A program made the translations under genes and the position numbers. Positions 13,411-39,416 of a DNA stretch of 39,416 nucleotides are shown here, in pieces. Below the pieces are notes generated by a model, which saw only the letters and a list, made by a program, of their open reading frames with translations, was not told the DNA's origin and ran no database searches. Origin of the DNA: Clostridiales bacterium (GTDB lineage: Bacteria; Bacillota; Sulfobacillia; CADDZV01); contig CADDZV010000010.1 in the NCBI GenBank assembly GCA_902812875.1, positions 1-39,416 on the forward strand, given 5' to 3'. Positions within the stretch are counted from its first letter, which is position 1; each line of letters opens with the position of its first letter.

Positions 13411-13596
13411 AACCTTCCTGCGGGGCAGGGTGAAATTCCCTACCGGCGGTAAATGTGGGGCCATGAGGCCCTCCAAAGCCCGCTAACCGCGGCGGCAAGT
13501 TTGCGGTGCCGGCCAGGCACCCCAAGCGTGCTGCGGCGGCCGATCCGGTGCGAATCCGGAGCCGACGGTCACAGTCCGGATGGGAGCAAGGAAGGC
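13411..13596 (+). ncRNA. FMN riboswitch (RFN element)
   Basis: The conserved RFN core is plain: GGGCAGGGTGAAATTCCC followed by TACCGGCGGTAA, then AGCCCGC, then GATCCGGTGCGAATCCGG, AGCCGACGGTCACAGTCC, and GGATGGGAG. Helix P1 closes through CCTTCCT (13413-13419) pairing with AGGAAGG (13589-13595). The element has a long variable arm between about 13450 and 13545. FMN binding would reduce expression of the downstream ribU. It is the only gene-control RNA recognised in the window. Confidence 0.95.
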
Positions 13597-36407: not shown

Positions 36408-37115
36408 CTACGAAAAGAGGGTGGTGATCCGACTGAAAAGGTTGAAATAGACCAGAAGCCCGAGGGCGATGAGGAGCAAGCCCGTGATTACCCGCAAGCG
36501 GTCGGCGTAGCGGGCCAGGGTCATCACCCGCCGCCGGAACGCCGTCAGAAATACCGCAGCAAGGACAAACGGTACCCCAAGTCCCAAGGAATAGGCTCCC
36601 AGAAGCGCCACCGCTTTGGCTGCGGTGGCAAAGGACTGGGCCAAGACCAGGATAGAGGCCAAGGCCGGCCCGGCGCACGGCGTCCAGGCTACCCCAAAGA
36701 CGATACCGAACATAAATGAAACCAACACGTTCGCCCGGTCGCCCGGGTCATACTGGAACCGGGCTTCGCGCCCGGTCAAAAATGAAAGCGGCAGCCACCC
36801 GGCCGTGGCCAGACCCATTGCTACCACAAAGACGCCGCCCAGTCGCCGGACAAGCGGCATATACCCGGACAAGACACTGCCGGCAGCGCCTACGGCCATG
36901 CCCATCAGGATGAACATGCTGGAAAATCCGAGCACAAACGAAAGAGCATTCACCACCAGCCGCAGCCGGCTGCGACCAGCCAGCTCACCGGAAACACCGG
37001 TATCACCAGCCAGAAAGGCTATGTACGCCGGGATAAGAGGCAAGACGCAAGGGGAAGCAAACGAGGCCAACCCCGCTATGAATGCCACGCCCACTGCCAC
37101 AATGGTGCCAGCCAA
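36408..37115 (-). CDS. ccdA: CcdA-type cytochrome c biogenesis thiol-disulfide transporter
   Basis: A 235-residue membrane protein of the CcdA/DsbD-transmembrane family with six predicted helices. The two redox cysteines are in SFASPCVLPL and WTPCAGP. It shuttles reducing power across the membrane to extracytoplasmic thioredoxins for cytochrome c maturation or sporulation. TTG at 37115 is chosen because GGAGG lies 8 nt upstream; the open frame extends 39 nt more. No thioredoxin-fold partner is adjacent, and haem genes are 28 kb away. The deacetylase follows. Confidence 0.9.
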   Translation of the reverse strand: MAGTIVAVGVAFIAGLASFASPCVLPLIPAYIAFLAGDTGVSGELAGRSRLRLVVNALSFVLGFSSMFILMGMAVGAAGSVLSGYMPLVRRLGGVFVVAMGLATAGWLPLSFLTGREARFQYDPGDRANVLVSFMFGIVFGVAWTPCAGPALASILVLAQSFATAAKAVALLGAYSLGLGVPFVLAAVFLTAFRRRVMTLARYADRLRVITGLLLIALGLLVYFNLFSRITTLFS

Positions 37116-37226
37116 GATATCGGCCTCCGCGCCTAGGTGGTCACAGGGAGCCAACCATTACACCCTGGTGCCATAACACGACCATTGTACAGCAGGCTCA
37201 TAAACCAGCGGGATCGGGACGTCACA

Positions 37227-38300
37227 TTAACTTGCGGTCGTCATGGACGGTAGTGCTTCCGCCTCACCCAGCAGCATGAGACGCGATTCCAGGTCGTCCT
37301 GGCTGATGAGACCTTTGTCCCAAAGGTCCCGGAGGCTATCGGCCATGCCCAGCATGCCGTAGCGGCTGCCGCTATGAATCGCCGCGTCCACTTGGTCAAT
37401 ACGTCCTTCCCGGAGAAGGGCCCTGACCGCCGGCGTGTTCACCAGCACGTCGACCGCTACGACCCGCCCGGGCTGGTCCTGCCGCGGTACGAGCTGCTGG
37501 GCCACCACCCCCACGAGGGTGGAGGAAATCTGGATGCGCACGGGGTCCTGCCTGTGCGGCGGAAACTGCTCAATGAGTTTTCGGATCGCGTGCGAGGCGG
37601 TGTTGGCATAAAAGCCGGCCAGCACGAGCTGGCGGGTTTCAGCAGCCACTAGTACGTCGGAAATCACGTCCGGATCGGAAAGCTCGCTGAGCATGATCAC
37701 GTCTGGGTCTTCGCGCAACGCTGCCCGCAGGGCAGCGGAAAAGGTCGCAACGTCAAGCCCGACTTCGCGCTGGTTGACGAGACTGCGTTTGTGCTTGTGC
37801 AGGTATTCGATCGGCGCCTCCAGGGTAAGAATGTGTACCGCCCGCTCCTCGTTGATCCGGTCGACGAGGCTCGCCAGGGTGGTGGAGCGGCCGCTGCCCG
37901 ACGGCCCCGCGACAATCACCAGGCCGCGCGGCGCCTGGGCAAACGTCCCCAGGACAGCCGGCAGCCGCAGTTCCTCCAGGGTGGGGATGACGGACGGCAA
38001 GACCCGCACCACAATGCCCACGCTGCCCCGCTGACGAAAGCCATGGACGCGGAATCTGCCTGCGCCGGGAATACTGTAGGTAAAATCGATGTCTCCTGCA
38101 TTGGCAAAGCGTTCACGTTGGGAAGGATTCATCAGGGCATCGAGAAGGGCGGCGGCTTCCGTCGGGGTGATTTTCTCGTCCCCTGCCCTGGCGAGCACAC
38201 CGTCCACGCGGACAAGCGGGGTGGCCCCCACGGTGACGTGCAGGTCGGAAGCTCCGCTGGAAGCGGCAAATTTGAGAAGTGCCTCCGCCTGATAAGGCAA
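37227..38300 (-). CDS. Degenerate PilT-like secretion ATPase
   Basis: A 357-residue PilT/GspE-superfamily protein. Overall layout matches PilT: N-terminal ASDLHVTVGATPLVRVDG, then a RecA-like domain. However the Walker A is GPSGSGRSTT with Arg at residue 138 where Lys is expected; the Walker B/Asp-box region is EDPDVIMLSELSD rather than the usual EMRD; and the His-box is AAETRQLVLAGFYANTA, without the GHL...LHTN residues. FPPHRQDPVRIQ and QQLVPRQD are kept. It may have lost ATPase activity or serve as a regulator. TTG at 38300 is chosen as start because GGGGG lies 7 nt upstream. It follows the GGDEF gene by 58 nt. No pilin genes are present. Confidence 0.83.
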   Translation of the reverse strand: MPYQAEALLKFAASSGASDLHVTVGATPLVRVDGVLARAGDEKITPTEAAALLDALMNPSQRERFANAGDIDFTYSIPGAGRFRVHGFRQRGSVGIVVRVLPSVIPTLEELRLPAVLGTFAQAPRGLVIVAGPSGSGRSTTLASLVDRINEERAVHILTLEAPIEYLHKHKRSLVNQREVGLDVATFSAALRAALREDPDVIMLSELSDPDVISDVLVAAETRQLVLAGFYANTASHAIRKLIEQFPPHRQDPVRIQISSTLVGVVAQQLVPRQDQPGRVVAVDVLVNTPAVRALLREGRIDQVDAAIHSGSRYGMLGMADSLRDLWDKGLISQDDLESRLMLLGEAEALPSMTTAS

Positions 38301-38358: not shown

Positions 38359-39416
38359 TTAGGACGAGCTGTACACCCGCACGACAGACCCGCCATCTTT
38401 TTTGCCCTGGTACATGGCGGCATCTGCCCGCTGCCACAGTTCCTCGAAACTGTCGGCATCTGCCGGGAAAGAGGCCACTCCCATGCTGGCCGACAGCCGC
38501 ACCGCCATGTCGCCGTAAGGCCCGAACGTCCGCTCCAGAATGGCAGCCTCAAGCCTGGCTCCCAAGGCGGCTGCCCCCTCGCGGGCAGTGCCGCGGCATA
38601 TGATGGCAAACTCGTCACCGCCCACGCGGGCCGCGGTGTCAGACCGACGTACGTGCTCGCGGACCAGCCCGGCAAATTCGGCCAGTACCCGGTCGCCCGT
38701 CTGGTGGCCGAGGCGGTCGTTGACGTGCTTGAAGTTGTCAAGATCGATCATCAGGAGGGAAACCGGCTCCGGCACCAGCCTGGCAGCCTCAATGGCCTCC
38801 TGCAGGTATTTCTTGAAATAGCGGTAGTTCACAAGGCCCGTGAGACCGTCGGTCATGGCCATTGCCCGCGTCTCCCCAAACAGGCGGGCATTGTCGAGAG
38901 CTATGGCCACGAGATCAGCCAGTGACACAAGAAGGGCGACGTCCTCGCCCGTAAACGTTTGATCCCGGCTTTCGATGTTGATTACCCCGGCGACATCGCC
39001 GCGGAGGTACACTGGCACCGCCACCTCTGCCCGTGCCCCCGGCAGGCCGGGGATATAGGCCGGGTTGTGGGTGACATCGTTTTCGACCACCGGCTGCCCG
39101 GTCTTGGCCGCCAGGCCGGTGATGCCTTGTCCGAAAGCGATGCGCATGCCCAGTGCGTCCTGGTAGCCCTGCGCTGCCCGCACCACGAGATACCCTTCGT
39201 CGTCCACCAACAAGATGGCGAAATATGGGTAGTTGAATGTGCGCTCGAGAACATCGCCCAGCCGGCTCAAAATGTTGTCGATATCGAGGGTGGACGATAG
39301 AATCTGGGCCGCCTCATACAGCGCCTGCAGCCGCCGTTCCGTTACCTGGGCGCGGCGTTCGACGCGGTCTGCCCACAGGATAAGGGCAGCAAGATCGGCC
39401 ACATCCTGGCACATAG
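38359..39416 (-). CDS. GAF-GGDEF diguanylate cyclase (5' end at or beyond the window edge)
   Basis: At least 351 residues. A GAF domain (~25-180: LYEAAQILSSTLDIDNIL, FGQGITGLAAKTG, VPVYLRGDVAGVINIES) precedes a GGDEF domain (~185-345). The active site is the canonical RVGGDEFAII, and a RRSD five residues upstream fits the RxxD inhibitory site, so c-di-GMP product inhibition is likely. Also typical are MTDGLTGLVNYRYF and MIDLDNFKHVND. An ATG at 39414 is the first visible codon, so the true start may lie outside. It is upstream of the degenerate PilT-like gene and may share its transcript. The GAF ligand is unknown. Confidence 0.92.
   Translation of the reverse strand, partial: MCQDVADLAALILWADRVERRAQVTERRLQALYEAAQILSSTLDIDNILSRLGDVLERTFNYPYFAILLVDDEGYLVVRAAQGYQDALGMRIAFGQGITGLAAKTGQPVVENDVTHNPAYIPGLPGARAEVAVPVYLRGDVAGVINIESRDQTFTGEDVALLVSLADLVAIALDNARLFGETRAMAMTDGLTGLVNYRYFKKYLQEAIEAARLVPEPVSLLMIDLDNFKHVNDRLGHQTGDRVLAEFAGLVREHVRRSDTAARVGGDEFAIICRGTAREGAAALGARLEAAILERTFGPYGDMAVRLSASMGVASFPADADSFEELWQRADAAMYQGKKDGGSVVRVYSSS

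Follow-up and report, generated by a model that had tools for sequence, protein, structure and literature searches.

The window, a whole contig (C10) of 39,416 nucleotides from a Clostridiales bacterium, encodes a protein that by sequence and fold belongs to the PilT family and that is best filed, on its sequence, as a conserved, hydrolysis-impaired PilT living without a pilus. We lean toward the view that it forms a PilT-derived, non-cycling ring that outlived the type IVa pilus in a scaffold or regulatory role, tied to cyclic di-GMP (c-di-GMP) output and possibly docked on a Tad system. The features concerned are as follows.

37227..38300, minus strand: pilT-like gene, 357 amino acids; TTG start at 38300, stop codon at 37227-37229
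37878..37907, minus strand: Walker A segment GPSGSGRSTT; K136R, Arg codon at 37887-37889
37803..37826, minus strand: Asp box TLEAPIEY; Asp to Ala at 37815-37817, both Glu residues retained
37674..37703, minus strand: Walker B segment DVIMLSELSD; G203S and R206S (37677-37679), E204 retained
37605..37634, minus strand: His box RQLVLAGFYA; H222Q and H229Y
37407..37430, minus strand: AVRALLRE, counterpart of the AIRNLIRE motif; frame retained, Asn gone
38359..39414, minus strand: GAF-GGDEF diguanylate cyclase gene, ending 58 bp upstream of the pilT-like gene on the same strand
36408..37154, minus strand: next gene downstream of the pilT-like gene, not counted as part of the system; its product is presumably a CcdA-like membrane protein

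A PilT-family protein with altered catalytic motifs

The TTG start is preceded by a GGGGG(T) stretch, and a listed open reading frame of 504 amino acids is the same frame extended upstream into the cyclase gene, nothing more. In profile searches, the protein passed the PilT/PilU family model TIGR01420 (388.6 bits against a cut-off of 319.1) and scored 26 bits against the TadA/CpaF model TIGR03819, for which the cut-off is 373. Its best sequence matches among solved structures are also PilTs, with about 44% identity to 5fl3. An AlphaFold model has a pLDDT of 94.1, and its top PDB matches are PilTs at TM scores of about 0.8 to 0.9, a result favored by an input alignment made up of PilT relatives. 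An earlier note, written from the DNA letters of the window, had stated that overall fold and length are kept, which agrees with these findings.

We numbered K136, R206, and H229 as in papers on Vibrio and Pseudomonas PilT; the first His-box histidine is taken as H222. In the alignment, the usual PilT Walker B stretch DVILVGEMRD reads DVIMLSELSD in the window protein, and the usual His box GHLVLATLHT reads RQLVLAGFYA. The same note had reported a Walker A lysine replaced by arginine, a changed His box, and a changed arginine in the EMRD segment. The alignments place all three, as K136R, H222Q with H229Y, and R206S, and add a point absent from the note, the retention of E204. R206 and H229 are named in the accessible parts of PMC6762196 and PMC12607626, respectively, and the AIRNLIRE motif in those of PMC4471445.

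Compared with an active PilT motor, the protein has no K136, no R206, and no His-box pair, and it has E204. Judged by its motifs, it falls short of an active PilT motor on several counts. The P-loop glycines are intact along with the Walker B glutamate E204; given that both the P-loop frame and this glutamate are retained, weak hydrolysis is possible. RecA-type proteins in which the Walker A lysine is changed to arginine, such as RecA K72R and Rad51 K133R, often bind ATP without turnover.

Lysine occupies position 136 in 113 of 114 relatives in the alignment and in 83 of 88 rows of a class-wide set that includes the window protein, and all five exceptions in the latter are arginine; the substitution is therefore attributable neither to chance nor to a local error. 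The note had proposed seeking the substitution in relatives, and the search found it in four other families. Sequencing or frame error was considered and ruled out by the several coordinated changes and the four other Arg-type genes.

Outside the motifs, most changes are conservative. The window protein keeps 53 of the 67 positions that reach 95% conservation or more across 66 reference PilTs (defined as the rows outside an 18-row tree group described below). A count of altered conserved positions (8 among 27 motif positions, 6 among 40 others) gave no clear excess in the motifs, so the argument rests instead on a pattern shared by 12 rows of the class-wide set.

Pilus genes in the source genome

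The source assembly (1.85 Mb, 88 contigs, 96.2% complete) encodes one PilT. Neither a PilB-grade match nor a T4a PilC was detected in this 96%-complete assembly, and PilM fell below the cut-off. The only other T2SSE proteins above the cut-off are TadA-like (C2 and C13), and the T2SSF matches (C2 and C38) are Tad-like in score. The note had described a lack of pilus neighbors; across the genome, PilB, T4a PilC, and PilM were likewise not detected. Because the assembly is 96% complete, a PilB could lie elsewhere in the organism, and the protein could in principle serve a type IVa pilus as an accessory, with the genes for that pilus in the 4% that the assembly misses, in keeping with the fragmentation into 88 contigs. 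We consider this very unlikely, since PilB, T4a PilC, and PilM each went undetected, though PilB and PilC adjoin pilT in most relatives, and nine other genomes whose PilT has lost catalytic residues also have no PilB-grade match.

Distribution of altered PilTs in the class

Of 154 genomes searched in the class, 79 gave matches at 1e-60, and the aligned set of 88 rows comprises the window protein and 87 PilTs extracted from loci of the class. We called a row broken when it is without the standard residue at K136, E204, R206, or H229. Twelve of the 88 rows are broken. All twelve belong to the 27 loci without PilB or PilC, and none to the 59 loci where the stretch examined includes PilB or PilC, as scored by manual reading with some loci ending at contig edges; the remaining 2 of the 88 rows lie at contig edges and were set aside. 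Fisher's test gives a p value of 1.1e-7 for this association, a figure that ignores kinship, and a sign test over independent pairs on supported branches was not significant, with three pairs only.

Arginine at position 136 occurs in five rows (the window, G040, G053, G027, and G013) with five different family codes, and no second PilT appears in any of these genomes at 1e-60. Ten of the 12 broken genes sit in genomes without a PilB-grade match; the remaining two are from G038 and G119, where a separate PilB exists. PilM-like partial matches above the cut-off (32 to 60 bits, compared with PilM scores of 124 to 172 bits in G038, G067, and G028) occur in four genomes with broken PilTs (G027, G013, G118, and G072), so full loss of pilus parts is best shown for the window genome.

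We also searched 398 genomes of the phylum, among which G040, G053, and G027 are not included, for the Walker A arginine, using the DNA pattern for GPxGSGRSTT with CGN arginine codons. It matched in three genomes, and only the window's own match was recognized as a PilT. The pattern misses AGA and AGG codons and variants without the proline and so does not cover all variants. The other matches are at G042:C1:787255 (L124), 13 kb from the PilT of that genome, and on G452:C1 (L122 and L125).

A separate family, f5 (L128-L130 and L173-L177), has PilTs with glutamine in place of the first His-box histidine (H222). Its loci carry a PilC-like gene about 2.1 kb upstream of pilT and have no PilB match in the stretch examined; the 2-kb gap upstream of pilT could hold a diverged PilB.

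Repeated loss of catalytic residues

A single origin of all 12 broken PilTs was rejected in a one-clade test (p-AU 2.8e-140), which argues that catalytic residues were lost more than once. One clear separate loss is seen in G063, whose gene, next to a GGDEF gene, is 80% identical to an intact gene of the same family in a pilus locus of G007 and has lost H229. For the five K136R rows, a single origin was not rejected (p-AU 0.889), on long branches and with a warning from the tree program that the pairing of the window row with L126 may be false; on this tree, the five may form one clade. The branch of the window protein is long, at about 1.0 change per site. In a quick tree, a group of 18 rows with modest support (89) holds nine broken rows (the broken set minus L012, L015, and L182), L015, and eight further rows, all eight from loci without PilB or PilC.

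Retained residues and selection

Several positions are unchanged in every one of the 12 broken rows. In the P-loop these are Gly130, Gly135, and the final Thr; elsewhere they are the two Asp-box glutamates, the N-domain arginines at alignment positions 83, 85, 92, and 100, the loop Q-R-E, and Q269. The catalytic residues are kept far less often, H229 in 1 of the 12 rows, R206 in 5, and E204 and K136 in 7 each (the other five having arginine at 136). What persists, then, is the floor of the pocket together with the parts that face the neighboring subunit in PilT; what disappears is the machinery of hydrolysis.

Four degenerate genes of family f38, 65 to 71% identical to one another, gave dN/dS values of 0.22 to 0.32 in six pairs by a simple counting method (dS about 0.8 to 1.0), and three canonical control clades (f24, f36, and f23) gave 0.14 to 0.28 in 12 pairs. 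The degenerate clade thus shows signs of purifying selection, like working PilTs. Three f38 loci (L183, L184, and L185) have pilT alone between two shikimate genes, in the order aroE-pilT-aroC, and two related loci (L190 and L208) have aroE-pilB-pilT-pilC...aroC, a comparison that suggests that the pilus operon disappeared and pilT stayed. The closest relative of the window gene that we found is about 50% identical, and in the absence of a close orthologue, selection on the window gene was judged by retained residues only.

These data bear on whether the gene is an evolutionary relic that has been decaying since the pilus was lost and has no present function. The undetected pilus partners, the missing catalytic residues, and the long branch are what a relic would show. 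The 357-codon frame is open, however, and the retention of most highly conserved positions and the conservative character of the non-motif changes speak against a relic, as do purifying selection on the degenerate f38 clade across four genera and the fact that the 12 broken rows retain identical positions without forming one clade. The fast PilTs from pilus loci L160, L172, and L163, with branches of 0.9 to 1.2, keep all four residues. We regard a relic as unlikely.

The cyclase neighbor and c-di-GMP genes near pilus-free PilTs

The gene 58 bp upstream encodes a GAF-GGDEF cyclase whose GGDEF motif is intact and which also carries an RRSD I-site-like motif, in line with the note's statement that the pilT-like gene follows a diguanylate cyclase. 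The 5' end of this gene falls at the contig end, and the gene may be incomplete. Profile searches of the whole 1.85-Mb genome returned just two GGDEF matches.

A GGDEF or HD-GYP gene lies within 1.5 kb of 9 of the 27 PilTs in loci without PilB or PilC (the window, G063, G035:C4, G051:C328, G105, G047, G093, G108, and G004) and of 1 of the 59 in pilus loci (G084). The last seven of the nine form one tree group, and the nine therefore amount to about three instances. Such a gene was found in none of 64 named PilT control loci; these are the loci, out of 80, flanked on each side by 1.5 kb or more (16 were dropped for short flanks), and 12 of the 64 are also without PilB or PilC in view. Apart from the window, eight of these pilus-free loci adjoin c-di-GMP genes; seven of their PilTs are intact at K136, E204, R206, and H229, and one has lost only H229. 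No c-di-GMP gene lies within 1.5 kb of pilT in the degenerate f38 loci or in the four K136R loci besides the window's, with little upstream flank available for scoring in L166 and L167. An observation at greater distance is a 1,381-amino-acid protein (L126, 169-4311) that combines several GAF domains with HD-GYP and GGDEF; its gene precedes the Arg-type pilT of G027 by 4.6 kb.

The note had suggested a possible tie to c-di-GMP. This tie has comparative support, though from only about three tree-level instances, and is probable for the window protein. Direct binding of c-di-GMP is less likely, given that a Pfam search of the protein returned T2SSE and a sub-threshold AAA_16 only, with no MshEN c-di-GMP-binding domain. 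No c-di-GMP riboswitch was found near the pilT-like and cyclase genes at the Rfam gathering threshold. Across the window, Rfam matched only an FMN riboswitch aptamer (13412-13596, plus strand, 90 bits).

Alternatively, the cyclase may be adjacent by chance, with the protein having a pilus-free role unrelated to c-di-GMP. We think this somewhat improbable: the small number of tree groups with c-di-GMP neighbors and the several degenerate loci without one are compatible with chance, but one of the only two GGDEF genes in the genome lies beside pilT on the same strand, and the control loci have no such neighbor.

Tad operons near pilus-free PilTs

Tad operons lie 5 to 8 kb downstream of pilus-free pilT genes in five loci (G053, G038:C57, G014, G035:C3, and G059:C196). 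They also occur close to intact PilB-PilT pairs in one family. Among side observations, family f4 (L136, L151, L162, L165, and L186) has Tad operons 5 to 6 kb downstream of pilT, with PilB directly upstream of pilT in four of five loci (L136 begins at a contig edge) and PilC not adjacent. Loci L168 and L169 carry pilT, a prepilin peptidase, and an M20-like peptidase in one stretch, which in L169 continues with a DegS/DegU pair and then TadE, TadG, RcpC, CpaE, and TadA. No Tad genes were found on the window's contig.

A working but unusual ATPase for retraction or regulation of a Tad pilus, in which arginine replaces the lysine and E204 still supports ATP hydrolysis, would suit the TadA and TadB/C genes retained in the source genome, the five loci with downstream Tad operons, and the Tad set on L169. 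We judge it improbable, as R206S and changes at H229 are each reported to cripple PilT (in the accessible portions of PMC6762196 and PMC12607626), the window's contig has no Tad genes, and Tad-type PF00482 matches are widespread in the class, being present in 19/19 and 25/25 chosen genomes. We had considered a Tad link as the main reading and demoted it to a rival because Tad operons also stand near intact PilB-PilT pairs.

Discussion

The preferred reading is a ring that outlasted its pilus. A lineage would have lost the type IVa pilus and retained the PilT subunit, and the hydrolysis machinery (the Walker A lysine, the arginine next to Walker B, and both His-box histidines) would then have been lost. 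The P-loop backbone, Asp-box glutamates, N-terminal-domain arginines, and conserved QRE loop would have stayed, giving a static or slowly cycling ring of the hexamer type that is probably nucleotide bound. Coexpressed with the GAF-GGDEF enzyme, this ring could act as a scaffold or adapter that feeds c-di-GMP output, and it may dock on the platform of the genome's remaining Tad pilus. The cyclase would be the likeliest functional partner of the window protein, and the Tad platform a possible dock; any c-di-GMP link would run through the neighboring cyclase.

The sequence basis consists of the residue losses, the undetected pilus partners, the retention pattern, the selection on one degenerate clade, and the gene neighborhoods, from which we infer ring formation, nucleotide binding without turnover, a scaffold role, and the c-di-GMP and Tad links. 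That PilT was kept after pilus loss, with catalysis repeatedly lost and the pocket floor and ring loop preserved, points to a function without hydrolysis. The note had envisaged an inactive ATPase reused as a regulator rather than a motor. The second half is supported: motor features are lost, PilB, PilC, and PilM were not found, other pilus-free relatives show the same loss, and one clade is under apparent purifying selection, all of which suggest that the protein is not a retraction motor in the ordinary sense. The regulator half stands as a proposal.

More tentatively, the pilus-free PilT branch with Lys-to-Arg P-loops in five families of one bacterial class could be a signaling ring, holding nucleotide but not cycling, that connects c-di-GMP enzymes, and perhaps Tad pilus platforms, in bacteria whose type IVa pilus has been lost. 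If so, PilT outlives its machine, turning repeatedly from motor to regulator. The shares of motor and scaffold in the role of PilT become directly testable in natural proteins, and a PilT match in an annotation does not imply a retractable pilus.

The accessible parts of PMC4471445 reflect the general view that PilT serves type IVa pili exclusively, and a literature search, mostly short of full text and covering few subscription journals, found no naturally inactive pilus-free PilT.

Comparison with known systems

The window protein resembles the PilT retraction ATPase (TIGR01420; PDB 5fl3, 5zfq, 6ojx, and 2ewv) in length, domain order, and fold (TM about 0.9), and in its P-loop glycines, Asp-box and Walker B glutamates, and N-domain arginines. 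It differs from canonical PilT in K136R, R206S, H222Q, H229Y, the altered AIRNLIRE motif, and the absence of detected PilB and PilC.

Among T2SSE-family ATPases, MshE and PilB are regulated by c-di-GMP. The window protein shares with them the family and a putative c-di-GMP connection, but it is without the N-terminal MshEN domain. PilU is likewise a PilT paralogue that depends on partners; according to the accessible text of PMC6762196, it differs in having intact Walker motifs and in being without the AIRNLIRE motif.

The closest functional parallels are ATPase-impaired PilTs. As far as the available sections of these papers describe, PilU-driven retraction in Vibrio cholerae persists when PilT carries K136A or E204A but not when PilT is deleted (PMC6821130 and PMC6762196); R206S is a natural PilT defect (PMC6762196), and H229A PilT retains little function (PMC12607626). 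The contrast between the K136A and E204A variants and the deletion indicates that a catalytically impaired PilT can serve as a link, joining another ATPase to the pilus machine (PMC6762196 and PMC6821130, within the same sections). The V. cholerae variants sit inside a complete pilus, whereas in the window protein the defect is fixed and the pilus was not found.
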